A DNA stretch of 64,000 bases, taken from Trichomonas vaginalis G3. Its lineage: Eukaryota; Parabasalia; Trichomonadida; Trichomonadidae. Shown here one piece after another: positions 34,956-64,000 of the stretch (position 1 is its first letter; the number at the start of each line of letters is the position of its first letter). The translations under genes were made by a program, and so were the position numbers. The stretch is taken from NCBI RefSeq assembly GCF_026262505.1, contig NC_067205.1, positions 11,656,001 through 11,720,000 on the forward strand, read 5' to 3'. The notes beneath the pieces were generated by a model that saw only the letters and a list, made by a program, of their open reading frames with translations, was not told where the DNA came from and ran no database searches.

Positions 34956-35027
34956 GGGTGCATAACTCAGTGGTAGAGCGCAACATTTGCATTGTTGAGG
35001 CCGAGGATTCGATTTCCCCTGCATGCA
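34956..35027 (+). tRNA. tRNA-Ala (TGC)
   Basis: A 72-base cloverleaf. D stem ACTC/GAGC (last pair mismatched). The anticodon arm CAACA-TTTGCAT-TGTTG gives anticodon TGC. The T arm is GAGGA-TTCGATT-TCCCC with one A:C mismatch. The acceptor stem GGGTGCA/TGCATGC contains the G3:U70 wobble that identifies alanine tRNAs, but has a G:G mismatch at the second pair. A T-rich pol III terminator follows directly. It is probably functional, although the mismatches leave room for a pseudo-tRNA. Confidence 0.85.
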
Positions 35028-35282: not shown

Positions 35283-36431
35283 TTAGTTTAATCCTAAAAT
35301 GATAAAGGTGAATAATATTGAAGAAGAGAAATATGGTGAATAGTTGGATGAGCATTTCAATATTCCCAGAATAGTTAAAATTAGTTGTCCATTGCCTTCC
35401 CATAGACCTGGATAGTTTCGAACATTATTGAAGAAATATACATCTTCGTACTTGAAGCCATATGGTTGACTACCAATATTTTCATAGAAACTATTGTATG
35501 CTATAATGTTTCCTTTTGGAAAATCCATGGCTCTCGTCAATGCCCATGAACTTCCTCCTCCTGAACCTCCGTTTCCTGACAAACCAGCGAATCCTCCGAA
35601 CCAACCTGCTCCTGCACCAGGGCGGTCGCTTGCACCTTCAGGAGATTTAACACCTTGATCATGTAATGATGTGTCTCTTCGTGGAGATTCTCCATATCCA
35701 AAACTGAAACCGAAAGAAGAATTTACCAAACTCTGATCTTTATATACACCATTATCCCAATATCCTTGTGCGGTAATTCCACCGCCTGAACCTCCTGAGC
35801 CATCATCTAGGCCTTGAAAGACAGTGCGATCGGTAGCGCTATTGTCTGAACCCCCTCCTCCACCGCTTACAATCACACGATGCCAGAGATCGTTTTTATC
35901 AAATTTGACACAGGTTTGGCCGCCTCCGCTCCCTGCACCGTTATAATTATCGAAAAGAAACCAATTTGCAGCATATCCTCCGCCGCCATATCCTCCTGGG
36001 ATCATATTTTGTGGTAAATAGCATTCATCGTTGTCAGCCATCTTTTTGCTGTAATTATATATTCCTCGACCTCCGATTGTGAAAAAAGCGGTTGTTCCTT
36101 TAGAAAGTATTATTGTTCCTGAGATATAGCCGCCCGAACCTCCTCGGCTGTTAACTTGTTTGCATTCTGTGTTTCCGCCGAATGCAGTTACAATCTCTTG
36201 ACTCGTGCAATTTCCATTCGAATCAATGAAAGTCGAAACTTTTCCTTCAGTTGCTCCTCCTGAGGCACCATACAACTCAAATTTGTACACACCTGCAGGT
36301 AAACTAACAAAATAATCTGTACATTCACTATTTGATGTACATGGATACTTGAAGATATATCTTTTATTAGTTTCATCAACAATAACATCTTCAGTCCTAA
36401 TAGATTCATTTACAAGATGATATGAAATCAT
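35283..36431 (-). CDS. Glycine-rich (ALK/LTK-GRD-like) surface protein, array copy 1, divergent and chimeric
   Basis: A 382-aa protein of the trichomonad glycine-rich family that resembles the extracellular glycine-rich domain of ALK/LTK receptors. Residues 25-55 hold the family entry YPCTSNSECTDYFVSLPAG and YKFELYGASGG. Glycine-rich turns follow: GGSGGYISGTIILS, FTIGGRG, GGYGGGGYAANW, VIVSGGGGGS, GSGGSGGG, GAGAGWFGGFAG and GGSGGGSSWAL. The last 20 residues are hydrophobic after small residues (SSSILFTFIILGLN), as in a GPI-anchor signal or short anchor. No classical signal peptide is visible, and TAA directly precedes the ATG, so the start is fixed. Residues 1-91 are identical to the other copies. 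From residue 92 on it differs at many positions, with no length change. There is no kinase domain. Confidence 0.85.
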   Translation of the reverse strand: MISYHLVNESIRTEDVIVDETNKRYIFKYPCTSNSECTDYFVSLPAGVYKFELYGASGGATEGKVSTFIDSNGNCTSQEIVTAFGGNTECKQVNSRGGSGGYISGTIILSKGTTAFFTIGGRGIYNYSKKMADNDECYLPQNMIPGGYGGGGYAANWFLFDNYNGAGSGGGQTCVKFDKNDLWHRVIVSGGGGGSDNSATDRTVFQGLDDGSGGSGGGITAQGYWDNGVYKDQSLVNSSFGFSFGYGESPRRDTSLHDQGVKSPEGASDRPGAGAGWFGGFAGLSGNGGSGGGSSWALTRAMDFPKGNIIAYNSFYENIGSQPYGFKYEDVYFFNNVRNYPGLWEGNGQLILTILGILKCSSNYSPYFSSSILFTFIILGLN

Positions 36432-37209
36432 TTAACGACTTATATAAACTTATCGACTATAACGGATGGAATCATAATTTCTTAACTTCTTTGTTCGGTT
36501 TCAATTTTGCCTTAGACCGAATCCTTTCATGATATTCGACCATGTACTTCATGTTACTGGTCTCCTTGTTCAAGGACATACTAATATATTCAATAAGGTT
36601 AAACTGCATTTATTTTTTATGAAAGTTTTTACTTGATTTTATGAATATATCTTTATGAAACCAATAAAATCACATTATCTTTGAATACACGAATCAGCTG
36701 ATCCTGGCCTTTCTATTGACCTCTTTAATTAGATAGACAATTCGATTTTAAATATATTTTGCAACTTTTCTTAAATGAAGGTTTCGACATAATATTCTAT
36801 ATGTTGTTGAAATTACGTATACCGATGATTATCGTAATATTTTCTTGTTGTTTAATCGATGAAATTTAATTGAATTCTCGATAAAAACATATTATTCTCG
36901 GTTTCTAAGTCCAAGTCTTATTTCATGGAAATGAAATAAAAAATATTAACAAATTGATTTATGAAAACTATGTTGCTCTCATCATTATGCAAATTCCATA
37001 AATGCATTTTTAGTTTGACAAGAAAATCAAACTTATGGAAAACATAACAAAATAAAATTCATACAAGATTAAGTAGTTGAACCCATAGTAATTTTTGATT
37101 TTATTATGTTACCAGTATGATATGAAATTTTTATAGCATATTAGAGGAATAGTTTAAATCTAGCTTTATATCAAAAAATATAACGTTCGTCATTTCAAAT
37201 CGGAAAATT
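36432..37209. other. Array spacer (representative), upstream of copy 1
   Basis: 778 bp, AT-rich, no ORF. Since the gene to its left is transcribed leftwards, its promoter should lie at the left end, where TTTATATAAGTCGTTAAATG ends in the start codon. The rest serves as the 3' flank of the next copy. It contains a 10-bp palindrome ATCAGCTGAT (36693-36702) and a 7-bp hairpin AGTTTGA/TCAAACT (37012-37033). The same spacer recurs after every copy. Confidence 0.6.
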
Positions 37210-38358
37210 TTAGTTTAATCCTAAAATGATAAAAGTGAATAATATTGAAGAAGGGATATATGATGAATAGAAAGTGGGACATTTCAAAGTGTCGAGAATT
37301 GTTAAAATGAGTTGTCCGTTGCCTTCCCAAATACCAGCATAGTTTCGAATATCATTGAAGAAATAACCATCACTAGAGTTGAATGCATATGGTTGACTAC
37401 CAATATTTTTATAAAAACTATCGTAGACTGTGATATTTCCACTGGGGTAATCTAATGCTTTAGTTAGTGCCCATGAACTTCCTCCTCCTGAACCTCCATT
37501 TCTATTCAATCCTGCAAAACCGCCAAACCAACCAGCTCCTGCACCTGGACGGTCACTTGTACCATCCGCAGATTTAACACCGTGCTCATGTAATGATGAA
37601 TATTGTCGTGCAGATTCTCCATATCCAAAACTGAAGCCAAAAGAAGAATTTGCCAATCTTTCGCCATTATATTTTCCATCTACCCAATAACCTTGCGAAA
37701 TAATTCCTCCTCCTGAACCTCCTGAGCCATCATCTGGACCTCGAAACTCAGTATTCACGCTAGCACTATTGTCTGAGCCACCACCGCCGCCGCTTACAAT
37801 AACGCGATGCCAGAGATCGTTCTTCTCAAATTTGACACATGTTTGGCCGCCTCCGCTCCCTGAGCCATTATCAACTTCATTTCGATACCAATTAGCTGCG
37901 TATCCGCCACCGCCATATCCTCCAGCAACCATATTTTCTTGGATATAGCATCGCTCTGTTTGTTCCTCTGTAATTTTGTATGTATAGATTCCGCGACCGC
38001 CGATTGTAAAAAAAGTGGTTGTTCGCTTAGAAAGTATTATTGTTCCTGAGATATAACCGCCAGAGCCTCCTCGACTATTCTTTTTCTTGCATTCTGTGTT
38101 TCCGCCGAATGCAGTTACAATCTCTTGACTCGTGCAATTTCCATTCGAATCAATGAAAGTCGAAACTTTTCCTTCAGTTGCTCCTCCTGAGGCACCATAC
38201 AACTCAAATTTGTACACACCTGCAGGTAAACTAACAAAATAATCTGTACATTCACTATTTGATGTACATGGATACTTGAAGATATATCTTTTATTAGTTT
38301 CATCAACAATAACATCTTCAGTCCTAATAGATTCATTTACAAGATGATATGAAATCAT
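37210..38358 (-). CDS. Glycine-rich surface protein, array copy 2 (reference copy)
   Basis: 382 aa, the major form of the array. Compared with copy 1 it has KKKNSRGG after residue 91, an altered Cys-containing loop (EEQTERCYIQENMVAGG), WYRNEVDNGSGSGGG, and a C-terminal CPTFYSSYIPSSILFTFIIL tail. Glycine-rich framework, cysteine positions and total length are unchanged, so variation falls in the loops between glycine turns. The predicted location is the cell surface through the hydrophobic C-terminus. Adhesion or an antigenic coat role is inference only. Confidence 0.85.
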   Translation of the reverse strand: MISYHLVNESIRTEDVIVDETNKRYIFKYPCTSNSECTDYFVSLPAGVYKFELYGASGGATEGKVSTFIDSNGNCTSQEIVTAFGGNTECKKKNSRGGSGGYISGTIILSKRTTTFFTIGGRGIYTYKITEEQTERCYIQENMVAGGYGGGGYAANWYRNEVDNGSGSGGGQTCVKFEKNDLWHRVIVSGGGGGSDNSASVNTEFRGPDDGSGGSGGGIISQGYWVDGKYNGERLANSSFGFSFGYGESARQYSSLHEHGVKSADGTSDRPGAGAGWFGGFAGLNRNGGSGGGSSWALTKALDYPSGNITVYDSFYKNIGSQPYAFNSSDGYFFNDIRNYAGIWEGNGQLILTILDTLKCPTFYSSYIPSSILFTFIILGLN

Positions 38359-39136
38359 TTAACGACTTATATAAACTTATCGACTATAACGGATGGAATC
38401 ATAATTTCTTAACTTCTTTGTTCGGTTTCAATTTTGCCTTAGACCGAATCCTTTCATGATATTCGACCATGTACTTCATGTTACTGGTCTCCTTGTTCAA
38501 GGACATACTAATATATTCAATAAGGTTAAACTGCATTTATTTTTTATGAAAGTTTTTACTTGATTTTATGAATATATCTTTATGAAACCAATAAAATCAC
38601 ATTATCTTTGAATACACGAATCAGCTGATCCTGGCCTTTCTATTGACCTCTTTAATTAGATAGACAATTCGATTTTAAATATATTTTGCAACTTTTCTTA
38701 AATGAAGGTTTCGACATAATATTCTATATGTTGTTGAAATTACGTATACCGATGATTATCGTAATATTTTCTTGTTGTTTAATCGATGAAATTTAATTGA
38801 ATTCTCGATAAAAACATATTATTCTCGGTTTCTAAGTCCAAGTCTTATTTCATGGAAATGAAATAAAAAATATTAACAAATTGATTTATGAAAACTATGT
38901 TGCTCTCATCATTATGCAAATTCCATAAATGCATTTTTAGTTTGACAAGAAAATCAAACTTATGGAAAACATAACAAAATAAAATTCATACAAGATTAAG
39001 TAGTTGAACCCATAGTAATTTTTGATTTTATTATGTTACCAGTATGATATGAAATTTTTATAGCATATTAGAGGAATAGTTTAAATCTAGCTTTATATCA
39101 AAAAATATAACGTTCGTCATTTCAAATCGGAAAATT

Positions 39137-40285
39137 TTAGTTTAATCCTAAAATGATAAAAGTGAATAATATTGAAGAAGGGATATATGATGAATAGAAA
39201 GTGGGACATTTCAAAGTGTCGAGAATTGTTAAAATGAGTTGTCCGTTGCCTTCCCAAATACCAGCATAGTTTCGAATATCATTGAAGAAATAACCATCAC
39301 TAGAGTTGAATGCATATGGTTGACTACCAATATTTTTATAAAAACTATCGTAGACTGTGATATTTCCACTGGGGTAATCTAATGCTTTAGTTAGTGCCCA
39401 TGAACTTCCTCCTCCTGAACCTCCATTTCTATTCAATCCTGCAAAACCGCCAAACCAACCAGCTCCTGCACCTGGACGGTCACTTGTACCATCCGCAGAT
39501 TTAACACCGTGCTCATGTAATGATGAATATTGTCGTGCAGATTCTCCATATCCAAAACTGAAGCCAAAAGAAGAATTTGCCAATCTTTCGCCATTATATT
39601 TTCCATCTACCCAATAACCTTGCGAAATAATTCCTCCTCCTGAACCTCCTGAGCCATCATCTGGACCTCGAAACTCAGTATTCACGCTAGCACTATTGTC
39701 TGAGCCACCACCGCCGCCGCTTACAATAACGCGATGCCAGAGATCGTTCTTCTCAAATTTGACACATGTTTGGCCGCCTCCGCTCCCTGAGCCATTATCA
39801 ACTTCATTTCGATACCAATTAGCTGCGTATCCGCCACCGCCATATCCTCCAGCAACCATATTTTCTTGGATATAGCATCGCTCTGTTTGTTCCTCTGTAA
39901 TTTTGTATGTATAGATTCCGCGACCGCCGATTGTAAAAAAAGTGGTTGTTCGCTTAGAAAGTATTATTGTTCCTGAGATATAACCGCCAGAGCCTCCTCG
40001 ACTATTCTTTTTCTTGCATTCTGTGTTTCCGCCGAATGCAGTTACAATCTCTTGACTCGTGCAATTTCCATTCGAATCAATGAAAGTCGAAACTTTTCCT
40101 TCAGTTGCTCCTCCTGAGGCACCATACAACTCAAATTTGTACACACCTGCAGGTAAACTAACAAAATAATCTGTACATTCACTATTTGATGTACATGGAT
40201 ACTTGAAGATATATCTTTTATTAGTTTCATCAACAATAACATCTTCAGTCCTAATAGATTCATTTACAAGATGATATGAAATCAT
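39137..40285 (-). CDS. Glycine-rich surface protein, array copy 3
   Basis: The protein is identical to copy 2 over all 382 residues. The flanking spacers are the same as those of copy 2. Confidence 0.85.
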   Translation of the reverse strand: MISYHLVNESIRTEDVIVDETNKRYIFKYPCTSNSECTDYFVSLPAGVYKFELYGASGGATEGKVSTFIDSNGNCTSQEIVTAFGGNTECKKKNSRGGSGGYISGTIILSKRTTTFFTIGGRGIYTYKITEEQTERCYIQENMVAGGYGGGGYAANWYRNEVDNGSGSGGGQTCVKFEKNDLWHRVIVSGGGGGSDNSASVNTEFRGPDDGSGGSGGGIISQGYWVDGKYNGERLANSSFGFSFGYGESARQYSSLHEHGVKSADGTSDRPGAGAGWFGGFAGLNRNGGSGGGSSWALTKALDYPSGNITVYDSFYKNIGSQPYAFNSSDGYFFNDIRNYAGIWEGNGQLILTILDTLKCPTFYSSYIPSSILFTFIILGLN

Positions 40286-41063
40286 TTAACGACTTATATA
40301 AACTTATCGACTATAACGGATGGAATCATAATTTCTTAACTTCTTTGTTCGGTTTCAATTTTGCCTTAGACCGAATCCTTTCATGATATTCGACCATGTA
40401 CTTCATGTTACTGGTCTCCTTGTTCAAGGACATACTAATATATTCAATAAGGTTAAACTGCATTTATTTTTTATGAAAGTTTTTACTTGATTTTATGAAT
40501 ATATCTTTATGAAACCAATAAAATCACATTATCTTTGAATACACGAATCAGCTGATCCTGGCCTTTCTATTGACCTCTTTAATTAGATAGACAATTCGAT
40601 TTTAAATATATTTTGCAACTTTTCTTAAATGAAGGTTTCGACATAATATTCTATATGTTGTTGAAATTACGTATACCGATGATTATCGTAATATTTTCTT
40701 GTTGTTTAATCGATGAAATTTAATTGAATTCTCGATAAAAACATATTATTCTCGGTTTCTAAGTCCAAGTCTTATTTCATGGAAATGAAATAAAAAATAT
40801 TAACAAATTGATTTATGAAAACTATGTTGCTCTCATCATTATGCAAATTCCATAAATGCATTTTTAGTTTGACAAGAAAATCAAACTTATGGAAAACATA
40901 ACAAAATAAAATTCATACAAGATTAAGTAGTTGAACCCATAGTAATTTTTGATTTTATTATGTTACCAGTATGATATGAAATTTTTATAGCATATTAGAG
41001 GAATAGTTTAAATCTAGCTTTATATCAAAAAATATAACGTTCGTCATTTCAAATCGGAAAATT

Positions 41064-42212
41064 TTAGTTTAATCCTAAAATGATAAAAGTGAATAATATT
41101 GAAGAAGGGATATATGATGAATAGAAAGTGGGACATTTCAAAGTGTCGAGAATTGTTAAAATGAGTTGTCCGTTGCCTTCCCAAATACCAGCATAGTTTC
41201 GAATATCATTGAAGAAATAACCATCACTAGAGTTGAATGCATATGGTTGACTACCAATATTTTTATAAAAACTATCGTAGACTGTGATATTTCCACTGGG
41301 GTAATCTAATGCTTTAGTTAGTGCCCATGAACTTCCTCCTCCTGAACCTCCATTTCTATTCAATCCTGCAAAACCGCCAAACCAACCAGCTCCTGCACCT
41401 GGACGGTCACTTGTACCATCCGCAGATTTAACACCGTGCTCATGTAATGATGAATATTGTCGTGCAGATTCTCCATATCCAAAACTGAAGCCAAAAGAAG
41501 AATTTGCCAATCTTTCGCCATTATATTTTCCATCTACCCAATAACCTTGCGAAATAATTCCTCCTCCTGAACCTCCTGAGCCATCATCTGGACCTCGAAA
41601 CTCAGTATTCACGCTAGCACTATTGTCTGAGCCACCACCGCCGCCGCTTACAATAACGCGATGCCAGAGATCGTTCTTCTCAAATTTGACACATGTTTGG
41701 CCGCCTCCGCTCCCTGAGCCATTATCAACTTCATTTCGATACCAATTAGCTGCGTATCCGCCACCGCCATATCCTCCAGCAACCATATTTTCTTGGATAT
41801 AGCATCGCTCTGTTTGTTCCTCTGTAATTTTGTATGTATAGATTCCGCGACCGCCGATTGTAAAAAAAGTGGTTGTTCGCTTAGAAAGTATTATTGTTCC
41901 TGAGATATAACCGCCAGAGCCTCCTCGACTATTCTTTTTCTTGCATTCTGTGTTTCCGCCGAATGCAGTTACAATCTCTTGACTCGTGCAATTTCCATTC
42001 GAATCAATGAAAGTCGAAACTTTTCCTTCAGTTGCTCCTCCTGAGGCACCATACAACTCAAATTTGTACACACCTGCAGGTAAACTAACAAAATAATCTG
42101 TACATTCACTATTTGATGTACATGGATACTTGAAGATATATCTTTTATTAGTTTCATCAACAATAACATCTTCAGTCCTAATAGATTCATTTACAAGATG
42201 ATATGAAATCAT
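41064..42212 (-). CDS. Glycine-rich surface protein, array copy 4
   Basis: Intact and identical in protein to copy 2. It starts exactly one 1927-bp period after copy 3. Confidence 0.85.
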   Translation of the reverse strand: MISYHLVNESIRTEDVIVDETNKRYIFKYPCTSNSECTDYFVSLPAGVYKFELYGASGGATEGKVSTFIDSNGNCTSQEIVTAFGGNTECKKKNSRGGSGGYISGTIILSKRTTTFFTIGGRGIYTYKITEEQTERCYIQENMVAGGYGGGGYAANWYRNEVDNGSGSGGGQTCVKFEKNDLWHRVIVSGGGGGSDNSASVNTEFRGPDDGSGGSGGGIISQGYWVDGKYNGERLANSSFGFSFGYGESARQYSSLHEHGVKSADGTSDRPGAGAGWFGGFAGLNRNGGSGGGSSWALTKALDYPSGNITVYDSFYKNIGSQPYAFNSSDGYFFNDIRNYAGIWEGNGQLILTILDTLKCPTFYSSYIPSSILFTFIILGLN

Positions 42213-42990
42213 TTAACGACTTATATAAACTTATCGACTATAACGGATGGAATCATAATTTCTTAACTTCTTTGTTCGGTTTCAATTTTGCCTTAGACCG
42301 AATCCTTTCATGATATTCGACCATGTACTTCATGTTACTGGTCTCCTTGTTCAAGGACATACTAATATATTCAATAAGGTTAAACTGCATTTATTTTTTA
42401 TGAAAGTTTTTACTTGATTTTATGAATATATCTTTATGAAACCAATAAAATCACATTATCTTTGAATACACGAATCAGCTGATCCTGGCCTTTCTATTGA
42501 CCTCTTTAATTAGATAGACAATTCGATTTTAAATATATTTTGCAACTTTTCTTAAATGAAGGTTTCGACATAATATTCTATATGTTGTTGAAATTACGTA
42601 TACCGATGATTATCGTAATATTTTCTTGTTGTTTAATCGATGAAATTTAATTGAATTCTCGATAAAAACATATTATTCTCGGTTTCTAAGTCCAAGTCTT
42701 ATTTCATGGAAATGAAATAAAAAATATTAACAAATTGATTTATGAAAACTATGTTGCTCTCATCATTATGCAAATTCCATAAATGCATTTTTAGTTTGAC
42801 AAGAAAATCAAACTTATGGAAAACATAACAAAATAAAATTCATACAAGATTAAGTAGTTGAACCCATAGTAATTTTTGATTTTATTATGTTACCAGTATG
42901 ATATGAAATTTTTATAGCATATTAGAGGAATAGTTTAAATCTAGCTTTATATCAAAAAATATAACGTTCGTCATTTCAAATCGGAAAATT

Positions 42991-44139
42991 TTAGTTTAAT
43001 CCTAAAATGATAAAAGTGAATAATATTGAAGAAGGGATATATGATGAATAGAAAGTGGGACATTTCAAAGTGTCGAGAATTGTTAAAATGAGTTGTCCGT
43101 TGCCTTCCCAAATACCAGCATAGTTTCGAATATCATTGAAGAAATAACCATCACTAGAGTTGAATGCATATGGTTGACTACCAATATTTTTATAAAAACT
43201 ATCGTAGACTGTGATATTTCCACTGGGGTAATCTAATGCTTTAGTTAGTGCCCATGAACTTCCTCCTCCTGAACCTCCATTTCTATTCAATCCTGCAAAA
43301 CCGCCAAACCAACCAGCTCCTGCACCTGGACGGTCACTTGTACCATCCGCAGATTTAACACCGTGCTCATGTAATGATGAATATTGTCGTGCAGATTCTC
43401 CATATCCAAAACTGAAGCCAAAAGAAGAATTTGCCAATCTTTCGCCATTATATTTTCCATCTACCCAATAACCTTGCGAAATAATTCCTCCTCCTGAACC
43501 TCCTGAGCCATCATCTGGACCTCGAAACTCAGTATTCACGCTAGCACTATTGTCTGAGCCACCACCGCCGCCGCTTACAATAACGCGATGCCAGAGATCG
43601 TTCTTCTCAAATTTGACACATGTTTGGCCGCCTCCGCTCCCTGAGCCATTATCAACTTCATTTCGATACCAATTAGCTGCGTATCCGCCACCGCCATATC
43701 CTCCAGCAACCATATTTTCTTGGATATAGCATCGCTCTGTTTGTTCCTCTGTAATTTTGTATGTATAGATTCCGCGACCGCCGATTGTAAAAAAAGTGGT
43801 TGTTCGCTTAGAAAGTATTATTGTTCCTGAGATATAACCGCCAGAGCCTCCTCGACTATTCTTTTTCTTGCATTCTGTGTTTCCGCCGAATGCAGTTACA
43901 ATCTCTTGACTCGTGCAATTTCCATTCGAATCAATGAAAGTCGAAACTTTTCCTTCAGTTGCTCCTCCTGAGGCACCATACAACTCAAATTTGTACACAC
44001 CTGCAGGTAAACTAACAAAATAATCTGTACATTCACTATTTGATGTACATGGATACTTGAAGATATATCTTTTATTAGTTTCATCAACAATAACATCTTC
44101 AGTCCTAATAGATTCATTTACAAGATGATATGAAATCAT
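42991..44139 (-). CDS. Glycine-rich surface protein, array copy 5
   Basis: Intact and identical in protein to copy 2. Confidence 0.85.
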   Translation of the reverse strand: MISYHLVNESIRTEDVIVDETNKRYIFKYPCTSNSECTDYFVSLPAGVYKFELYGASGGATEGKVSTFIDSNGNCTSQEIVTAFGGNTECKKKNSRGGSGGYISGTIILSKRTTTFFTIGGRGIYTYKITEEQTERCYIQENMVAGGYGGGGYAANWYRNEVDNGSGSGGGQTCVKFEKNDLWHRVIVSGGGGGSDNSASVNTEFRGPDDGSGGSGGGIISQGYWVDGKYNGERLANSSFGFSFGYGESARQYSSLHEHGVKSADGTSDRPGAGAGWFGGFAGLNRNGGSGGGSSWALTKALDYPSGNITVYDSFYKNIGSQPYAFNSSDGYFFNDIRNYAGIWEGNGQLILTILDTLKCPTFYSSYIPSSILFTFIILGLN

Positions 44140-44917
44140 TTAACGACTTATATAAACTTATCGACTATAACGGATGGAATCATAATTTCTTAACTTCTTT
44201 GTTCGGTTTCAATTTTGCCTTAGACCGAATCCTTTCATGATATTCGACCATGTACTTCATGTTACTGGTCTCCTTGTTCAAGGACATACTAATATATTCA
44301 ATAAGGTTAAACTGCATTTATTTTTTATGAAAGTTTTTACTTGATTTTATGAATATATCTTTATGAAACCAATAAAATCACATTATCTTTGAATACACGA
44401 ATCAGCTGATCCTGGCCTTTCTATTGACCTCTTTAATTAGATAGACAATTCGATTTTAAATATATTTTGCAACTTTTCTTAAATGAAGGTTTCGACATAA
44501 TATTCTATATGTTGTTGAAATTACGTATACCGATGATTATCGTAATATTTTCTTGTTGTTTAATCGATGAAATTTAATTGAATTCTCGATAAAAACATAT
44601 TATTCTCGGTTTCTAAGTCCAAGTCTTATTTCATGGAAATGAAATAAAAAATATTAACAAATTGATTTATGAAAACTATGTTGCTCTCATCATTATGCAA
44701 ATTCCATAAATGCATTTTTAGTTTGACAAGAAAATCAAACTTATGGAAAACATAACAAAATAAAATTCATACAAGATTAAGTAGTTGAACCCATAGTAAT
44801 TTTTGATTTTATTATGTTACCAGTATGATATGAAATTTTTATAGCATATTAGAGGAATAGTTTAAATCTAGCTTTATATCAAAAAATATAACGTTCGTCA
44901 TTTCAAATCGGAAAATT

Positions 44918-46066
44918 TTAGTTTAATCCTAAAATGATAAAAGTGAATAATATTGAAGAAGGGATATATGATGAATAGAAAGTGGGACATTTCAAAGTGT
45001 CGAGAATTGTTAAAATGAGTTGTCCGTTGCCTTCCCAAATACCAGCATAGTTTCGAATATCATTGAAGAAATAACCATCACTAGAGTTGAATGCATATGG
45101 TTGACTACCAATATTTTTATAAAAACTATCGTAGACTGTGATATTTCCACTGGGGTAATCTAATGCTTTAGTTAGTGCCCATGAACTTCCTCCTCCTGAA
45201 CCTCCATTTCTATTCAATCCTGCAAAACCGCCAAACCAACCAGCTCCTGCACCTGGACGGTCACTTGTACCATCCGCAGATTTAACACCGTGCTCATGTA
45301 ATGATGAATATTGTCGTGCAGATTCTCCATATCCAAAACTGAAGCCAAAAGAAGAATTTGCCAATCTTTCGCCATTATATTTTCCATCTACCCAATAACC
45401 TTGCGAAATAATTCCTCCTCCTGAACCTCCTGAGCCATCATCTGGACCTCGAAACTCAGTATTCACGCTAGCACTATTGTCTGAGCCACCACCGCCGCCG
45501 CTTACAATAACGCGATGCCAGAGATCGTTCTTCTCAAATTTGACACATGTTTGGCCGCCTCCGCTCCCTGAGCCATTATCAACTTCATTTCGATACCAAT
45601 TAGCTGCGTATCCGCCACCGCCATATCCTCCAGCAACCATATTTTCTTGGATATAGCATCGCTCTGTTTGTTCCTCTGTAATTTTGTATGTATAGATTCC
45701 GCGACCGCCGATTGTAAAAAAAGTGGTTGTTCGCTTAGAAAGTATTATTGTTCCTGAGATATAACCGCCAGAGCCTCCTCGACTATTCTTTTTCTTGCAT
45801 TCTGTGTTTCCGCCGAATGCAGTTACAATCTCTTGACTCGTGCAATTTCCATTCGAATCAATGAAAGTCGAAACTTTTCCTTCAGTTGCTCCTCCTGAGG
45901 CACCATACAACTCAAATTTGTACACACCTGCAGGTAAACTAACAAAATAATCTGTACATTCACTATTTGATGTACATGGATACTTGAAGATATATCTTTT
46001 ATTAGTTTCATCAACAATAACATCTTCAGTCCTAATAGATTCATTTACAAGATGATATGAAATCAT
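44918..46066 (-). CDS. Glycine-rich surface protein, array copy 6
   Basis: Intact and identical in protein to copy 2. The spacer upstream of this copy (46067-46843) lacks one base near 46386, the only difference I noticed among copies 2-10. Confidence 0.85.
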   Translation of the reverse strand: MISYHLVNESIRTEDVIVDETNKRYIFKYPCTSNSECTDYFVSLPAGVYKFELYGASGGATEGKVSTFIDSNGNCTSQEIVTAFGGNTECKKKNSRGGSGGYISGTIILSKRTTTFFTIGGRGIYTYKITEEQTERCYIQENMVAGGYGGGGYAANWYRNEVDNGSGSGGGQTCVKFEKNDLWHRVIVSGGGGGSDNSASVNTEFRGPDDGSGGSGGGIISQGYWVDGKYNGERLANSSFGFSFGYGESARQYSSLHEHGVKSADGTSDRPGAGAGWFGGFAGLNRNGGSGGGSSWALTKALDYPSGNITVYDSFYKNIGSQPYAFNSSDGYFFNDIRNYAGIWEGNGQLILTILDTLKCPTFYSSYIPSSILFTFIILGLN

Positions 46067-46843
46067 TTAACGACTTATATAAACTTATCGACTATAACGG
46101 ATGGAATCATAATTTCTTAACTTCTTTGTTCGGTTTCAATTTTGCCTTAGACCGAATCCTTTCATGATATTCGACCATGTACTTCATGTTACTGGTCTCC
46201 TTGTTCAAGGACATACTAATATATTCAATAAGGTTAAACTGCATTTATTTTTTATGAAAGTTTTTACTTGATTTTATGAATATATCTTTATGAAACCAAT
46301 AAAATCACATTATCTTTGAATACACGAATCAGCTGATCCTGGCCTTTCTATTGACCTCTTTAATTAGATAGACAATTCGATTTTAAAATATTTTGCAACT
46401 TTTCTTAAATGAAGGTTTCGACATAATATTCTATATGTTGTTGAAATTACGTATACCGATGATTATCGTAATATTTTCTTGTTGTTTAATCGATGAAATT
46501 TAATTGAATTCTCGATAAAAACATATTATTCTCGGTTTCTAAGTCCAAGTCTTATTTCATGGAAATGAAATAAAAAATATTAACAAATTGATTTATGAAA
46601 ACTATGTTGCTCTCATCATTATGCAAATTCCATAAATGCATTTTTAGTTTGACAAGAAAATCAAACTTATGGAAAACATAACAAAATAAAATTCATACAA
46701 GATTAAGTAGTTGAACCCATAGTAATTTTTGATTTTATTATGTTACCAGTATGATATGAAATTTTTATAGCATATTAGAGGAATAGTTTAAATCTAGCTT
46801 TATATCAAAAAATATAACGTTCGTCATTTCAAATCGGAAAATT

Positions 46844-52624: not shown

Positions 52625-53773
52625 TTAGTTTAATCCTAAAATGATAAAAGTGAATAATATTGAAGAAGGGATATATGATGAATAGAAAGTGGGACATTTC
52701 AAAGTGTCGAGAATTGTTAAAATGAGTTGTCCGTTGCCTTCCCAAATACCAGCATAGTTTCGAATATCATTGAAGAAATAACCATCACTAGAGTTGAATG
52801 CATATGGTTGACTACCAATATTTTTATAAAAACTATCGTAGACTGTGATATTTCCACTGGGGTAATCTAATGCTTTAGTTAGTGCCCATGAACTTCCTCC
52901 TCCTGAACCTCCATTTCTATTCAATCCTGCAAAACCGCCAAACCAACCAGCTCCTGCACCTGGACGGTCACTTGTACCATCCGCAGATTTAACACCGTGC
53001 TCATGTAATGATGAATATTGTCGTGCAGATTCTCCATATCCAAAACTGAAGCCAAAAGAAGAATTTGCCAATCTTTCGCCATTATATTTTCCATCTACCC
53101 AATAACCTTGCGAAATAATTCCTCCTCCTGAACCTCCTGAGCCATCATCTGGACCTCGAAACTCAGTATTCACGCTAGCACTATTGTCTGAGCCACCACC
53201 GCCGCCGCTTACAATAACGCGATGCCAGAGATCGTTCTTCTCAAATTTGACACATGTTTGGCCGCCTCCGCTCCCTGAGCCATTATCAACTTCATTTCGA
53301 TACCAATTAGCTGCGTATCCGCCACCGCCATATCCTCCAGCAACCATATTTTCTTGGATATAGCATCGCTCTGTTTGTTCCTCTGTAATTTTGTATGTAT
53401 AGATTCCGCGACCGCCGATTGTAAAAAAAGTGGTTGTTCGCTTAGAAAGTATTATTGTTCCTGAGATATAACCGCCAGAGCCTCCTCGACTATTCTTTTT
53501 CTTGCATTCTGTGTTTCCGCCGAATGCAGTTACAATCTCTTGACTCGTGCAATTTCCATTCGAATCAATGAAAGTCGAAACTTTTCCTTCAGTTGCTCCT
53601 CCTGAGGCACCATACAACTCAAATTTGTACACACCTGCAGGTAAACTAACAAAATAATCTGTACATTCACTATTTGATGTACATGGATACTTGAAGATAT
53701 ATCTTTTATTAGTTTCATCAACAATAACATCTTCAGTCCTAATAGATTCATTTACAAGATGATATGAAATCAT
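52625..53773 (-). CDS. Glycine-rich surface protein, array copy 10 (last intact copy)
   Basis: Intact and identical in protein to copy 2. Sequence quality changes abruptly about 0.9 kb to its right: indels begin near 54670, inside copy 11. Confidence 0.85.
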   Translation of the reverse strand: MISYHLVNESIRTEDVIVDETNKRYIFKYPCTSNSECTDYFVSLPAGVYKFELYGASGGATEGKVSTFIDSNGNCTSQEIVTAFGGNTECKKKNSRGGSGGYISGTIILSKRTTTFFTIGGRGIYTYKITEEQTERCYIQENMVAGGYGGGGYAANWYRNEVDNGSGSGGGQTCVKFEKNDLWHRVIVSGGGGGSDNSASVNTEFRGPDDGSGGSGGGIISQGYWVDGKYNGERLANSSFGFSFGYGESARQYSSLHEHGVKSADGTSDRPGAGAGWFGGFAGLNRNGGSGGGSSWALTKALDYPSGNITVYDSFYKNIGSQPYAFNSSDGYFFNDIRNYAGIWEGNGQLILTILDTLKCPTFYSSYIPSSILFTFIILGLN

Positions 53774-54551
53774 TTAACGACTTATATAAACTTATCGACT
53801 ATAACGGATGGAATCATAATTTCTTAACTTCTTTGTTCGGTTTCAATTTTGCCTTAGACCGAATCCTTTCATGATATTCGACCATGTACTTCATGTTACT
53901 GGTCTCCTTGTTCAAGGACATACTAATATATTCAATAAGGTTAAACTGCATTTATTTTTTATGAAAGTTTTTACTTGATTTTATGAATATATCTTTATGA
54001 AACCAATAAAATCACATTATCTTTGAATACACGAATCAGCTGATCCTGGCCTTTCTATTGACCTCTTTAATTAGATAGACAATTCGATTTTAAATATATT
54101 TTGCAACTTTTCTTAAATGAAGGTTTCGACATAATATTCTATATGTTGTTGAAATTACGTATACCGATGATTATCGTAATATTTTCTTGTTGTTTAATCG
54201 ATGAAATTTAATTGAATTCTCGATAAAAACATATTATTCTCGGTTTCTAAGTCCAAGTCTTATTTCATGGAAATGAAATAAAAAATATTAACAAATTGAT
54301 TTATGAAAACTATGTTGCTCTCATCATTATGCAAATTCCATAAATGCATTTTTAGTTTGACAAGAAAATCAAACTTATGGAAAACATAACAAAATAAAAT
54401 TCATACAAGATTAAGTAGTTGAACCCATAGTAATTTTTGATTTTATTATGTTACCAGTATGATATGAAATTTTTATAGCATATTAGAGGAATAGTTTAAA
54501 TCTAGCTTTATATCAAAAAATATAACGTTCGTCATTTCAAATCGGAAAATT

Positions 54552-55700
54552 TTAGTTTAATCCTAAAATGATAAAAGTGAATAATATTGAAGAAGGGATA
54601 TATGATGAATAGAAAGTGGGACATTTCAAAGTGTCGAGAATTGTTAAAATGAGTTGTCCGTTGCCTTCCCCAAATACCAGCATAGTTTCGAATATCATTG
54701 AAGAAATAACCATCACTAGAGTTGAATGCATATGGTTGACTACCAATATTTTTTAAAAAAACGTAGACTGTGATATTTCCACTGGGGTAATCTAATGCTT
54801 TTAGTGCCCATGAACTTCCTCCTCCTGAACCTCCATTTCTATTCAATCCTGCAAAAACCGCCAAACCAACCAGCTCCTGCACCTGGACGGTCACTTGTAC
54901 CATCCGCAGATTTAACACCGTGCTCATGTAATGATGAATATTGTCGTGCAGATTCTCCATATCCAAAACTGAAGCCAAAAGAAGAATTTGCCAATCTTTC
55001 GCCATTATATTTTTCCATCTACCCAATAACCTTGCGAAATAATTCCTCCTCCTGAACTCCTGAGCCATCATCTGGACCTCGAAACTCAGTATTCACGCTA
55101 GCACTATTGTCTGAGCCACCACCGCCGCCGCTTACAATAACGCGATGCCAGAGATCGTTCTTCTCAAATTTGACACATGTTTTGGGCCGCCTCCGCTCCC
55201 TGAGCCATTATCAACTTCATTTCGATACCAATTAGCTGCGTATCCGCCACCGCCATATCCTCCAGCAACCATATTTTCTTGGATATAGCATCGCTCTGTT
55301 TGTTCCTCTGTAATTTTGTATGTATAGATTTCCGCGACCGCCGATTGTAAAAAAGTGGTTGTTCGCTTAGAAAGTATTATTGTTCCTGAGATATAACGCC
55401 CAGAGCCTCCTCGACTATTCTTTTTCTTGCATTCTGTGTTTCCGCCGATGCAGTTACAATCTCTTGACTCGTGCAATTTCCATTCGAATCAATGAAAGTC
55501 GAAACTTTTTCCTTCAGTTGCTCCTCCTGAGGCACCATACAACTCAAATTTGTACACACCTGCAGGTAAACTAACAAAATAATCTGTACATTCACTATTT
55601 GATGTACATGGATACTTGAAGATATATCTTTTATTAGTTTCATCAACAATAACATCTTTCAGTCCTAATAGATTTCATTTACAAGATGATATGAAATCAT
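54552..55700 (-). pseudogene. Glycine-rich surface protein, array copy 11, frameshifted
   Basis: The same gene with many one- to four-base gains and losses. Examples are an extra C near 54670, changes near 54750-54765, a four-base loss near 54802, an extra A near 54856, a loss near 55056, two extra bases near 55182 and a loss near 55448. Gains and losses nearly cancel, so total length is again 1149. No substitution pattern suggests natural decay. It is probably an intact gene in poorly polished sequence. Confidence 0.75.
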
Positions 55701-56481
55701 TTAACGACTTATATAAACTTATCGACTATAACGGATGGAATCATAATTTCTTAACTTCTTTGTTCGGTTTCAATTTTGCCTTAGACCGAATCCTTTCATG
55801 ATATTCGACCATGTACTTCATGTTACTGGTCTCCTTGTTCAAGGACATACTAATATATTCAATAAGGTTAACCTGCATTTATTTTTTATGAAAGTTTTTA
55901 CTTGATTTATGAATATATCTTTATGAAACCAATAAAATCACATTATCTTTGAATACACGAATCAGCTGATCCTGGCCTTTCTATTGACCTCTTTAATTAG
56001 ATAGACAATTCGATTTTTAAATATATTTTGCAACTTTTCTTAAATGAAGGTTTCGACATAATATTCTATATGTTGTTGAAATTACGTATACCGATGATTA
56101 TCGTAATATTTTCTTGTTGTTTAATCGATGAAATTTAATTGAATTCTCGATAAAAACATATTATTCTCGGTTCTAAGTCCAAGTCTTATTTCATGGAAAT
56201 GAAATAAAAAATATTAACAAATTGATTTATGAAAACTATGTGCTCTCATCATTATGCAAATTCCATAAATTGCATTTTTAGTTTGACAAGAAAATTCAAA
56301 CTTAATGGAAACATAACAAAATAAAATTCATACACAGATTAAGTAGTTGAACCCATAGTAATTTTTGATTTTTATTATGTTACCAGTATGATATGAAATT
56401 TTTATAGCATATTAGAGGAATAGTTTAAATCTAGCTTTATATCAAAAATATAACGTTTCGTCATTTTCAAATCGGAAAATT

Positions 56482-57627
56482 TTAGTTTAATCCTAAAATG
56501 ATAAAAAGTGAATAATATTGAAGAAGGGATTATGATGAATAGAAAGTGGGACATTTCAAAGTGTCGAGAATTGTTAAAATGAGTTGTCCGTTGCCTTCCC
56601 AAATACCAGCATAGTTTCGAATATCATTGAAGAAATAACCATCACTAGAGTTGAATGCATATGGTTGACTACCAATATTTTTTTATAAAAACTATCGTAG
56701 ACTGTGTGATTATTCCACTGGGGTAATCTAATGCTTTAGTTAGTGCCCATGAACTTCCTCCTCCTGAACCTCATTTCTATTCAATCCTGCAAAACCGCCA
56801 AACCAACCAGCTTCCTGCACCTGACGGTCACTTGTACCATCCGCAGATTTAACACCGTGCTCATGTAATGATGAATTTGTCGTGCAGATTCTCCATATCC
56901 AAAACTGAAGCCAAAAGAAGAATTTGCCAATCTTTCGCCATTATATTTTCCATCTACCCAATAACCTTGCGAAATAATTCCTCCTCCTGAACCTCCTGAG
57001 CCATCATCTGGACCTCGAAACTCAGTATTCACGCTAGCACTATTGTCTGAGCCACCACCGCCCCGCTTACAATAACGCGATGCCAGAGATCGTTCTTCTC
57101 AAATTTGACACATGTTTGGCCGCCTCCGCTCCCTGAGCCATTATCAACTTCATTTCGATACCAATTAGCTGCGTATCCGCCACCGCCATATCCTCCAGCA
57201 ACCATATTTTCTTGGATATAGCATCGCTCTGTTTGTTCCTGTAATTTTGTATGTATAGATTCCGCGACCGCCGATTGTAAAAAAAGTGGTTGTTCGCTTA
57301 GAAAGTATTATGTTCCTGAGATATAACCGCCAGAAGCCTCCTCGACTATTCTTTTCTTGCATTCTGTGTTTCCGCCGAATGCAGTTACAATCTCTTGACT
57401 CGTGCAATTCCATTCGAATCAATGAAAGTCGAAACTTTTCCTTCAGTTGCTTCCTCCTGAGGCACCATACAACTCAAATTTGTACACACCTGCAGGTAAA
57501 CTAACAAATAATCTGTACATTCACTATTTGATGTACATGGATACTTGAAGATATATCTTTATTTTAGTTTTCATCAACAATAACATCTTCAGTCCTAATA
57601 GATTCATTCAAGATGATATGAAATCAT
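56482..57627 (-). pseudogene. Glycine-rich surface protein, array copy 12, frameshifted
   Basis: Scattered indels (for example near 56530, 56690, 56708, 56772, 56812, 57062, 57239, 57312 and 57560) split the frame into short pieces. Adjacent spacer DNA is equally affected. Confidence 0.75.
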
Positions 57628-58401
57628 TTAACGACTTATATAAACTTATCGACTATAACGGATGGAATCATAATTTCTTAACTTCTTTGTTCGGTTTCAA
57701 TTTTGCCTTAGACCGAATCCTTCATGATATTCGACCATGTACTTCATGTTACTGGTCTCTCCTTGTTCAAGGACATACTAATATATTCATAAGGTTAAAC
57801 TGCATTTATTTTTTATGAAAGTTTTTACTTGATTTTATGAATATATCTTTATGAAACCAATAAAATCACATTATCTTTGAATACACGAATCAGCTGATCC
57901 TGGCCTTTCTATTGACCTCTTTAATTAGATAGACAATTCGAAAAATATATTTTGCAACTTTTCTTAATGAAGTTTCGACATAATATTCTATATGTTGTTG
58001 AAAATTACGTATACCGATGATTATCGTAATATTTTCTTGTTGTTTAATCGATGAAATTTAATTGAATTCTCGATAAAAACATATTATTCTCGGTTTCTAA
58101 GTCCAAGTCTTATTTCATGGAAATGAAATAAAAAATATTAACAAATTGATTTATGAAAACTATGTTGCTCTCATCATTATGCAAATTCCATAAATGCATT
58201 TTTAAGTTTGACAAGAAAATCAAACTTATGGAAAACATAACAAATAAAATTCATACAAGATTAAGTAGTTGAACCCATAGTAATTTTTGATTTTATTATG
58301 TTACCAAGTATGATTGAAATTTTTATAGCATATTAGAGGAATAGTTTAAATCTAGCTTTATATCAAAAAATATAACGTTCGTCATTTCAAATCGGAAAAT
58401 T

Positions 58402-59546
58402 TTAGTTTAATCCTAAAATGATAAAAGTGAATAATATTGAAGAAGGGATATATGATGAATAGAAAGTGGGACATTCAAAGTGTCGAGAATTGTTAAAATG
58501 AGTTGTCCGTTGCCTTCCCAAATACCAGCATAGTTTTCGAATATCATTGAAGAAATAACCATCACTAGAGTTGAATGCATATGGTTGACTACCAATATTT
58601 TTATAAAAACTATCGTAGACTGTGATATTTCCACTGGGGTAATCTAATGCTTTAGTTAGTGCCCATGAACTTCCTCCTCCTAAACCTCCATTTCTATTCA
58701 ATCCTGCAAAACCGCCAAACCAACCAGCTCCTGCACCTGGACGGTCACTTGTACCATCCGCAGATTTAACACCGTGCTCATGTAATGATGAATATTGTCG
58801 TGCAGATTCTCCATATCCAAAACTGAAGCCAAAAGAAGAATTTGCCAATCTTTCGCCATTATATTTTCCATCTACCCAATAACCTTGCGAAATAATTCTC
58901 CTCCTGAACCTCCTGAGCCATCATCTGGACCTCGAAACTCAGTATTCACGCTAGCACTATTGTCGAGCCACCACCGCCGCCGCTTACAATAACGCGATGC
59001 CAGAGATCGTTCTTCTCAAATTTGACACATGTTTGGCCGCCTCCGCTCCCTGAGCCATTATCAACTTCATTTCGATACCAATTAGCTGCGTATCCGCCAC
59101 CGCCATATCTCTCAGCAACCATATTTTCTTGGATATAGCATCGCTCTGTTTGTTCCTCTGTAATTTTGTATGTATAGATTCCGCGACCGCCGATTGTAAA
59201 AAAAGTGGTTGTTCGCTTAGAAAGTATTATTGTTCCTGAGATATAACCGCCAGAGCCTCCTCGACTATTCTTTTTCTTGCATTCTGTGTTTCCGCCGAAT
59301 GCAGTTACAATCTCTTGATCGTGCAATTTCCATTCGAATCAATGAAAGTCGAAACTTTTCCTCAGTTGCTCCTCCTGAGGCACCATACAACTCAAATTTG
59401 TACACACCTGCAGGTAAACTAACAAAATAATCTGTACATTCACTATTTGATGTACATGGATACTTGAAGATATATCTTTTATTAGTTTCATCAACAATAA
59501 CATCTTCAGTCCTAATAGATTCATTTACAAGATGATATGAAATCAT
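58402..59546 (-). pseudogene. Glycine-rich surface protein, array copy 13, frameshifted
   Basis: Single-base losses and gains near 58473, 58536, 58898, 58964, 59320 and 59361, a small rearrangement near 59108 and one substitution near 58681. Long stretches between them match copy 2 exactly. Confidence 0.75.
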
Positions 59547-60322
59547 TTAACGACTTATATAAACTTATCGACTTAAACGGATGGAATCATAATTTCTTAA
59601 CTTCTTTGTTCGGTTTCAATTTTGCCTTACCGAATCCTTTCATGATATTCGACATGTACTTCATGTTACTGGTCTCCTTGTTCAAGGACATACTAATATA
59701 TTCAATAAGGTTAAACTGCATTTATTTTTTATGAAAGTTTTTACTTGATTTTATGAATATATCTTTATGAAACCAATAAAATCACATTATCTTTGAATAC
59801 ACGAATCAGCTGATCCTGGCCTTTCTATTGACCTCTTTAATTAGATAGACAATTCGATTTTAAATATATTTTGCAACTTTTCTTAAATGAAGGTTTCGAC
59901 ATAATATTCTATATGTTGTTGAAATTACGTATACCGATGATTATCGTAATATTTTCTTGTTGTTTAATCGATGAAATTTAATTGAATTCTCGATAAAAAC
60001 ATATTATTCTCGGTTTCTAAGTCCAAGTCTTATTTCATGGAAATGAAATAAAAAATATTAACAAATTGATTTATGAAAACTATGTTGCTCTCATCATTAT
60101 GCAAATTCCATAAATGCATTTTTAGTTTGACAAGAAAATCAAACTTATGGAAAACATAACAAAAATAAAATTCATACAAGATTAAGTAGTTGAACCCATA
60201 GTAATTTTTGATTTTATTATGTTACCAGTATGATATGAAATTTTTATAGAATATTAGAGGAATAGTTTAAATCTAGCTTTATATCAAAAAATATAACGTT
60301 CGTCATTTCAAATCGGAAAATT

Positions 60323-61467
60323 TTAGTTTAATCCTAAAATGATAAAAGTGAATAAATTGAAGAAGGGATATATATGAATAGAAAGTGGGACATTTCAAAG
60401 TGTCGAGAATTGTTAAAATGAGTTGTCCGTTGCCTTCCCAAATACCAGCATAGTTTCGAATATCATTGAAGAATAAACCATCACTAGAGTTGAATGCATA
60501 TGGTTGACTACCAATATTTTTATAAAAACTATCGTAGACTGTGATATTTCCACTGGGGTAATCTAATGCTTTAGTTAGTGCCCATGAACTTCCTCCTCCT
60601 GAACCTCCATTTCTATTCAATCCTGCAAAACCGCAAACCAACCAGCTCCTGCACCTGGACGGTCACTTGTACCATCCGCAGATTTAACACCGTGCTCATG
60701 TAATGATGAATATTGTCGTGCAGATTCTCCATATCCAAAACTGAAGCCAAAAGAAGAATTGCCAATCTTTCGCCATTATATTTTCCATCTACCCAATAAC
60801 CTTGCGAAATAATTCCTCCTCCTGAACCTCCTGAGCCATCATCTGGACCTCGAAACTCAGTATTCACGCTAGCACTATTGTCTGAGCCACCACCCGCCGC
60901 CGCTACAATAACGCGATGCCAGAGATCGTTCTCTCAAATTTGACACATGTTTTGGCCGCCTCCGCTCCCTGAGCCATTATCAACTTCATTTCGATACCAA
61001 TTAGCTGCGTATCCGCCACCGCCATATCCTCCAGCAACCATATTTTCTTGGATATAGCATCGCTCTGTTTGTTCCTCTGTAATTTTGTATGTATAGATTC
61101 CGCGACCGCCGATTGTAAAAAAAGTGGTTGTTCGCTTAGAAAGTATTATTGTTCCTGAGATATAACCGCCAGAGCCTCCTCGACTATTCTTTTTCTTGCA
61201 TTCTGTGTTTCCGCCGAATGCAGTTACAATCTCTTGACTCGTGCAATTTCCATTCGAATCAATGAAAGTCGAAACTTTTCCTTCAGTTGCTCCTCCTGAG
61301 GCACCATACAACTCAAATTTGTACACACCTGCAGGTAAACTAACAAAATAATCTGTACATTCACTATTTGATGTACATGGATACTTGAAGATATATCTTT
61401 TATTAGTTTCATCAACAATAACATCTTCAGTCCTAATAGATTCATTTACAAGATGATATGAAATCAT
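60323..61467 (-). pseudogene. Glycine-rich surface protein, array copy 14, frameshifted
   Basis: The N-terminal 170 or so codons read normally. Indels cluster near 60895-60950, 60760, 60633 and 60355-60375. Confidence 0.75.
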
Positions 61468-62242
61468 TTAACGACTTATATAAACTTATCGACTATAACG
61501 GATGGAATCATAATTTTTAACTTCTTTGTTCGGTTTCAATTTTGCCTTAGACCGAATCCTTTCATGATATTCGACCATGTACTTCATGTTACTGGTCTCC
61601 TTGTTCAAGGACATACTAAATTATTCAATAAGGTTAAACTGCATTTATTTTTTATGAAAGTTTACTTGATTTTATGAATATATCTTTATGAAACCAAATA
61701 AAATCACATTATCTTTGAATACACGAATCAGCTGATCCTGGCCTTTCTATTGACCCTCTTTAATTAGATAGACAATTCGATTTTAAATATATTTTGCAAC
61801 TTTTCTTAAATGAAGGTTTCGACATAATATTCTATATGTTGTTGAAATTACGTATACCGATGATTATCGTAATATTTTCTTGTTGTTTAATCGATGAAAT
61901 TTAATTGAATTCTCGATAAAAACATATTATTCTCGTTTCTAAGTCCAAGTCTTATTTCATGGAAATGAAATAAAAAATATTAACAAATTGATTTATGAAA
62001 ACTATGTTGCTCTCATCATTATGCAAATTCCATAAATGCATTTTTAGTTTGACAAGAAAATCAAACTTATGGAAAACATAACAAAATAAAATTCATACAA
62101 GATTAAGTAGTTGAACCCATAGTAATTTTTGATTTTATTATGTTACCAGTATGATATGAAATTTTTATAGCATATTAGAGGAATAGTTTAAATCTAGCTT
62201 TATATCAAAAATATAACGTTCGTCATTTCAAATCGGAAAATT

Positions 62243-63390
62243 TTAGTTTAATCCTAAAATGATAAAAGTGAATAATATTGAAGAAGGGATATATGATGAA
62301 TAGAAAGTGGGACATTTCAAAGTGTCGAGAATTGTTAAAATGAGTTGTCCGTTGCCTTCCCAAATACCAGCATAGTTTCGAATATCATTGAAGAAATAAC
62401 CATCACTAGAGTTGAATGCATATGGTTGACTACCAATATTTTTATAAAAACTATCGTAGACTGTGATATTTCCACTGGGGTAATCTAATGCTTTAGTTAG
62501 TGCCCATGAACTTCCTCCTCCTGAACCTCCATTTCTATTCAATCCTGCAAAACCGCCAAACCAACCAGCTCCTGCACCTGGACGGTCACTTGTACCATCC
62601 GCAGATTTAACACCGTGCTCATGTAATGATGAATATTGTCGTGCAGATTCTCCATATCCAAAACTGAAGCCAAAAGAAGAATTTGCCAATCTTTCGCCAT
62701 TATATTTTCATCTACCCAATAACCTTGCGAAATAATTCCTCCTCCTGAACCTCCTGAGCCATCATCTGGACCTCGAAACTCAGTATTCACGCTAGCACTA
62801 TTGTCTGAGCCACCACCGCCGCCGCTTACAATAACGCGATGCCAGAGATCGTTCTTCTCAAATTTGACACATATGTTTGGCCGCCTCCGCTCCCTGAGCC
62901 ATTATCAACTTCATTTCGATACCAATTAGCTGCGTATCCGCCACCGCCATATCCTCCAGCAACCATATTTTCTTGGATATAGCATCGCTCTGTTTGTTCC
63001 TCTGTAATTTTGTATGTATAGATTCCGCGACGCCGATTGTAAAAAAATGGTTGTTCGCTTAGAAAGTATTATTGTTCCTGAGATATAACCGCCAGAGCCT
63101 CCTCGACTATTCTTTTTCTTGCATTCTGTGTTTCCGCCGAATGCATTTACAATCTCTTGACTCGTGCAATTTCCATTCGAATCAATGAAAGTCGAAACTT
63201 TTCCTTCAGTTGCTCCTCCTGAGGCACCATACAACTCAAATTTGTACACACCTGCAGGTAAACTAACAAAATAATCTGTACATTCACTATTTGATGTACA
63301 TGGATACTTGAAGATATATCTTTTATTAGTTTCATCAACAATAACATCTTCAGTCCTAATAGATTCATTTACAAGATGATATGAAATCAT
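62243..63390 (-). pseudogene. Glycine-rich surface protein, array copy 15, frameshifted
   Basis: Frame breaks near 62709, 62872, 63031 and 63048. The remainder matches copy 2. To the right, only the spacer of the next unit (63391-64000) is inside the window, so the array continues beyond it. Confidence 0.75.
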
Positions 63391-64000
63391 TTTAACGACT
63401 TATATAAACTTATCGACTATAACGGAGGAATCATAATTTCTTAACTTCTTTGTTCGGTTTCAATTTTGCCTTAGACCGAATCCTTTCATGATATTCGACA
63501 TGTACTTCATGTTACTGGTCTCCTTGTTCAAGGACATACTAATATATTCAATAAGGTTAAACTGCATTTATTTTTTATGAAAGTTTTTACTTGATTTTAT
63601 GAATATATCTTTATGAAACCAATAAAATCACATTATCTTTGAATACACGAATCAGCTGATCCTGGCCTTTCTATTGACCTCTTTAATTAGATAGACAATT
63701 CGATTTTAAATATATTTTGCAACTTTTCTTAAATGAAGGTTTCGAACTAAATATTCTATATGTTGTTGAAATTACGTATACCGATGATTATCGTAATATT
63801 TTCTTGTTGTTTAATCGATGAAATTTAATTGAATTCTCGATAAAAACATATTATTCTCGGTTTCTAAGTCCAAGTCTTATTTCATGGAAATGAAATAAAA
63901 AATATTAACAAATTGATTTATGAAAACTATGTCTCTCTCATTATGCAAATTCCATAAATGCATTTTTAGTTTGACAAGAAAATCAAACTTATGGAAAACA

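Follow-up and report, generated by a model that had tools for sequence, protein, structure and literature searches.

A tandem array of some 17 glycine-rich-domain genes in Trichomonas vaginalis, probably a recent local amplification

How did a gene of Trichomonas vaginalis G3 come to stand in a long row of copies that are alike down to their spacers, and is the row real? The question arises in the second half of the window, the whole stretch of 64,000 nucleotides analysed here (contig NC_067205.1, hereafter C3, 11656001-11720000; coordinates are window positions unless a contig is named), where 1927 bp is the dominant lag over 36000-64000. The array is present in the sequence. The window alone holds 14 full units and part of a 15th, and a BLAST search with unit 1 (36432-38358) as query, covering the window plus 16 kb of sequence beyond it, detected 17 full head-to-tail units of ~1927 bp at 36432-69132, so that the array overruns the window end by ~5 kb. 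An earlier note on this DNA had claimed at least 15 tandem copies with a 1927-bp period from 36160; this was borne out, and the start given there is exactly where identity with the left-hand paralogue, gene A, begins. Each unit consists of a 778-bp spacer and a 382-codon gene, all array genes lying on the minus strand, and the block of identity extends over 33.2 kb (36160-69326), that is, 17 units plus 466 bp. The features are as follows.

35283 to 36431, minus strand: gene A, the left-flank paralogue, 382 aa, with 79% protein identity to the array gene and its 5' 272 bp identical
36160 to 36431, minus strand: the 272 bp at the 5' end of gene A, which match the array gene without a difference and form the left end of the identity block (first mismatch at 36159)
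36432 to 53773, minus strand: units 1-9, identical save that the spacer of unit 6 is one base short
37210 to 38358, minus strand: the array gene of unit 1 (P0001), with PF12810 ALK_LTK_GRD at residues 40-355, a structure model and a fold match
53774 to 63391, minus strand: units 10-14, 98-99% identical with mostly indel differences, frames broken in the assembly
63392 to 64000, minus strand: start of unit 15; units 15-17 run on to 69132 (locus L009), the right end of the identity block being at 69326
54668 to 64000, no strand assigned: the part within the window of the block rich in indels (54668-67891), which we interpret as long-read sequence that was poorly corrected

Comparison of the units confirmed that the nine consecutive copies first noticed encode identical proteins and that their spacers are as conserved as the genes, the one base absent from unit 6 being the only difference among units 1-9. 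Of all the spacers, nine are 778 bp long at 100% identity, one has a single base missing and seven are at 98-99%. The repeats are thus direct, near-identical and made of gene and spacer together, and in the genome searched (180.85 Mb, 86 contigs; very common words skipped) the spacer had no match away from the locus, the only other occurrences being two stretches that have diverged to 78% and 81%, both adjoining the array. The intact, identical protein is encoded by 10 gene copies, those of units 1-9 and of unit 17 (contig C3 11723987-11725132). Identical stretches thousands of bases long exclude chance, and because the spacers are identical too, protein-level selection is ruled out as the cause of the identity, as the earlier note had argued.

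The array is preceded on its left by a 2585-codon open frame without a Pfam match (27059-34816), and a tRNA-Ala gene (34956-35027) lies between this frame and the array. Elsewhere in the window, a cyclic nucleotide phosphodiesterase with GAF domains is encoded at 11625-15161, with an ankyrin-repeat gene (15624-18128) and a Ras-family GTPase (18467-19072) next to it, and a 952-codon frame over low-complexity tandem repeats, with no Pfam match, occupies 19652-22510. Maverick-type elements are common in T. vaginalis, and the stretch 1421-2989, which resembles organellar/viral type B DNA polymerase weakly and below the cut-off, is possibly part of one.

Analysis of the 382-aa array protein revealed PF12810 (ALK_LTK_GRD; E 3e-54, 185 bits against a cut-off of 24.5, profile positions 1-243 of 243) as its only Pfam domain, and its structure is predicted with confidence to have the ALK/LTK glycine-rich-domain fold. 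Similarity to the glycine-rich (TG) domain of the ALK/LTK receptors (PDB 7NX0, 7LS0, 7LRZ) amounts to ~20% identity with low Foldseek TM-scores of ~0.33, and, unlike those receptors, the array protein has no kinase domain or other receptor part that we found; the name 'receptor protein-tyrosine kinase' that its homologues bear in databases is misleading here. The family profile had no match among PDB sequences at E 0.001, so Pfam and the fold are what ties the family to ALK/LTK. Judging from the modelled fold, the role of the protein is probably binding or structural. In a viral structure library 38 entries matched at E below 0.001, and these include glycine-rich proteins of phages and giant viruses. 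We also considered genetic code 4; the array genes read identically under both codes, and there is no reason to leave the standard one.

The description of the gene as 'surface-type' found no support, no signal peptide being visible: a simple hydropathy scan gives the N-terminus a best 15-residue mean of 0.06, which is not hydrophobic, and an in-frame stop directly precedes the ATG. Of the 63 family proteins, one from a metagenome has the highest N-terminal value, 1.41. The C-terminus carries a weak hydrophobic tail (15-residue mean 1.96 in the same kind of scan), and 24 of the 63 family proteins reach 1.6 or more there. The protein alignment had 63 rows, namely the array protein and 62 of 120 listed homologues (155 found), chosen by length and coverage.

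The glycine-rich-domain family is large: all 150 matches scored, of 885 candidates in the profile search, exceed the Pfam cut-off, which makes the count a lower bound. What PMC2843621 says of such proteins is that 12 TvBspA proteins have a glycine-rich domain, that 51 more with a related GRD but without leucine-rich repeats were left uninvestigated, and that some local duplication was noted for the T. vaginalis GRD proteins discussed with the BspA-like family; an array of identical copies does not figure in these statements. The glycine-rich domain is common to those proteins and to the array family, the array proteins being without leucine-rich repeats (a search for the TpLRR type found no repeat family in the array protein), and the two are likely to be one family. 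A literature search for PF12810 together with Trichomonas found no paper, nor did the literature searched, which did not extend to the G3 assembly paper, yield an earlier description of the array.

A second array of the family was found on contig C2 (20644353-20690490; L011-L015, L017), with 25 near-identical copies that show 6 mismatches and 45 gap openings. Like the 17-unit array, it is made of near-identical copies whose differences are mostly gaps; its genes are spaced ~1.43 or 2.72 kb apart, with one step of 4.49 kb, and are 55% identical to the gene of the first array. At 6465-6545 kb of contig C3 (L019, L020, L071, L072), glycine-rich-domain genes occur on both strands in pairs ~28-30 kb apart with equal or near-equal search scores, and these may represent a larger segmental duplication of a cluster. 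For the comparisons below, family loci were hand-picked from 111 matches, itself a minimum since 108 of 408 candidates were scored. Loci L025-L072 gave distinct frames at 36 of 48, the other 12 giving none or a repeat, and the second-array gene was missed by the frame pattern. Eight of the 63 distinct frames, being under 330 codons, were dropped to leave 55, and removal of one start-less frame with an internal stop left 54 (23 start-less) for dN/dS, tree and tract analysis.

All differences in units 10-17 are confined to 54668-67891, a block of ~13.2 kb, and they comprise 100 deletions and 56 insertions (156 indels) versus 9 substitutions. The genes of units 10-16 carry 6-22 events each and their frames are broken in the assembly, as would be seen if these units were genuine pseudogenes. 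We consider this reading scarcely credible and rejected it on the ratio of indels to substitutions and on the sharp edges of the block: the events fall on genes (91) and spacers (74) alike, clean sequence lies on either side, and four paralogues beside the array show the opposite pattern, with 176-271 mismatches and 2-8 gap openings. Moreover, 156 of the 165 events occur in a single unit each, and private differences dominated by indels would be the signature of incompletely corrected long reads. The assembly thus appears to join the clean left units to the clean right stub via ~13.2 kb of poorly corrected read sequence. Given that the differences follow the error pattern of long reads, the seven frame-broken copies are no evidence of pseudogenes and are probably technical, the genes probably being intact in the cell. 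Four variants recur in two or three units each; they amount to 6 colliding pairs, the simulation giving 3.4 ± 1.8 (P 0.13), and a true sharing of variants among the degraded units was rejected as not significant. Errors that are nearly independent from unit to unit indicate that the degraded units were seemingly read separately, which suggests several real units in tandem; the true copy number may differ from 17.

A related concern is that only a few units exist and were multiplied by the assembler or in gap filling. The unpolished-looking 13.2 kb inside the array speaks for this, as such joins in repeats can misplace or miscount units, and so does the finding that, with proteins clustered at 90% identity, the cluster of the array gene maps to a single contig, against two for that of the flanking gene D (TVAG_425220). 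A single-contig cluster is also compatible with amplification after the older draft or with a wrong new assembly, and perhaps the older Sanger draft was unable to place the repeat. The privacy of the events means, however, that the degraded units are not copies of one consensus; unique sequence is present at both ends, and the second array of the family has the same style of differences. An assembly artefact is therefore improbable, although the identity of the clean units could in part come from consensus copying during polishing. We conclude that the array is genuine and probably a recent tandem amplification of an already known kind.

To which process do the ends of the block point? On the left, identity extends 272 bp into gene A and then stops; on the right, it extends 194 bp beyond the last start codon. 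The two ends consequently share 466 bp, composed of 272 bp of 5' coding sequence and 194 bp upstream. Under uniform divergence, the probability of zero difference between gene A and the array gene over the 272 bp is 9e-23. Gene A and gene C, which lie on opposite sides of the array, have an identical run of 520 bp, followed by a part ~76-82% alike and, near the 3' end, by one at 91-98%, and the 5' tract is common to A, C and the array gene save one base in C. The paralogues are under purifying selection (dN 0.12 and dS 0.46 between the array gene and gene A). Among the 54 family frames, identical runs of at least 60 bp that lie far above shuffled placement (z over 8) were detected in 8 of the 465 pairs of ATG-bearing frames and in 11 of the 253 pairs of ATG-less ones, and the 18 tract pairs listed (8 ATG-bearing and 10 of the 11 ATG-less) all join genes of a single cluster or of separate clusters on the same contig.

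An overlap of 466 bp beyond 17 units is the footprint that homologous exchange leaves and that joining without homology does not. Together, the block ends and the shared tracts make local conversion and unequal exchange the best-supported engine, in line with the suggestion in the earlier note that exchange or conversion made the units alike, and amplification by unequal exchange is likely on this evidence, though the overlap could alternatively have grown by later conversion. Replication-based copying, by rolling circle or break-induced, would likewise yield identical direct repeats, and many units at once, but homology-free copying leaves few or no shared bases, whereas the 466 bp of homology is what crossover predicts; we regard such copying as unlikely, while noting that a homology-driven break-induced form may be compatible with the 466 bp. 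Under unequal exchange, gene A and the forerunner of the array gene would have begun as neighbours sharing an identical 466-bp stretch ~1.9 kb apart; exchange between these stretches would have given a second copy of the 1927-bp unit, and repeated slippage by whole units may have brought the count to around 17. Gene conversion, the tracts of which are seen, would keep spreading identical sequence among neighbours.

The same tracts, present in several family clusters, fit an old array that was held uniform by steady gene conversion and never recently amplified. We judge this possible yet on the unlikely side: the nine units, spacers included, have zero substitutions, and the one other cluster compared in full has diverged genes (best pair 89%, next 81%), indicating that conversion by itself is not always enough to hold units alike. 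For these two reasons we favour a recent amplification over an old homogenised array, one genome being compared. To the whole account, namely recent head-to-tail amplification via unequal exchange, conversion among neighbours, a poorly corrected middle and more of one protein as the result, we assign a probability of roughly 0.6.

The likeliest outcome of such an amplification would be more of one kinase-less glycine-rich-domain protein, and dosage would be the likeliest consequence of the array. T. vaginalis genes are transcribed singly, and each copy had been credited with its own promoter. The part of this that stood is the spacer, which accompanies every copy; an Inr-like motif is missing at the distance where the family has a weak excess of it. 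Across the family, TCAYW, which we take to be the Inr consensus of T. vaginalis, shows this slight excess at 30-50 nt upstream: the two 10-nt bins there hold 11 and 10 occurrences, the other 18 bins 0-9. Between -60 and -30 it occurs in 20 of 55 genes, versus 8-14 in six control windows. For the array gene and gene A, the nearest TCAYW is at -191, and gene C has none within 200 nt upstream. With the Inr-like motif of the family missing near the array genes, their expression is not to be assumed, and the array copies may, as far as motifs tell, be little expressed. The tandem arrays of Trypanosoma brucei, as far as PMC1855330 describes them, are likewise head-to-tail protist gene arrays, derived from tandem duplication and thought to raise dosage; they differ in gene family and in being transcribed polycistronically, without individual promoters.

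Inspection of the family brought up a further feature, which may be more surprising than the array itself. No ATG is present at the conserved start in 24 of the 55 distinct full-length frames (23 of 54 without the internal-stop frame). At the aligned start position 19 of the 23 have ATA or ATT and the rest CTG, TTG, GTG and TTT (the last perhaps misaligned), and an in-frame stop lies few codons upstream in the start-less frames inspected. These frames occur in clusters at C2:2249001-2265000 (L021-L022) and C5:15775001-15790000 (L023-L024) and at dispersed loci among L027-L070, and 20 of the 23 fall into two clades of the tree (4 label changes versus 17.7 for shuffled labels). Their median dN/dS is 0.25 before and 0.21 after the first usual internal Met, the ATG-bearing medians for the same two parts being 0.27 and 0.32 (pairs of moderate synonymous distance only: 47 and 54 of 253 ATG-less, 37 and 76 of 465 ATG-bearing), and the start-less frames look protein-constrained. 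A spliced leader exon was rejected, as none of the 55 upstream stretches of 300 nt held an intron 3' motif (motifs as excerpted from PMC12316389). Silent-donor cassettes, in which start-less donors would feed expressed genes, are unlikely, since 0 of 713 cross pairs between ATG-bearing and ATG-less frames (54 frames) had a conversion tract. The remaining options are that translation begins at a near-cognate codon, that an exon went unrecognised, or that the start was lost and the frames have not yet eroded. Protein constraint at an N-terminus that has neither an ATG nor a recognised intron upstream argues for the first of these, and one could picture the family as a locally recombining, copy-number-unstable system, with two loci that have reached 17 and 25 near-identical copies, and with translation from near-cognate starts (mostly AUA/AUU for AUG) in a large clade; as a whole, this picture is rather improbable.

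For work on this locus, gene counts, pseudogene counts and RNA-seq mapping in the middle of the array may mislead when taken from the reference. For the family, the start-less clade raises a testable question on translation start in trichomonads. And with both of its ends preserved, the array makes the likely expansion route of a parasite gene family readable from the sequence.
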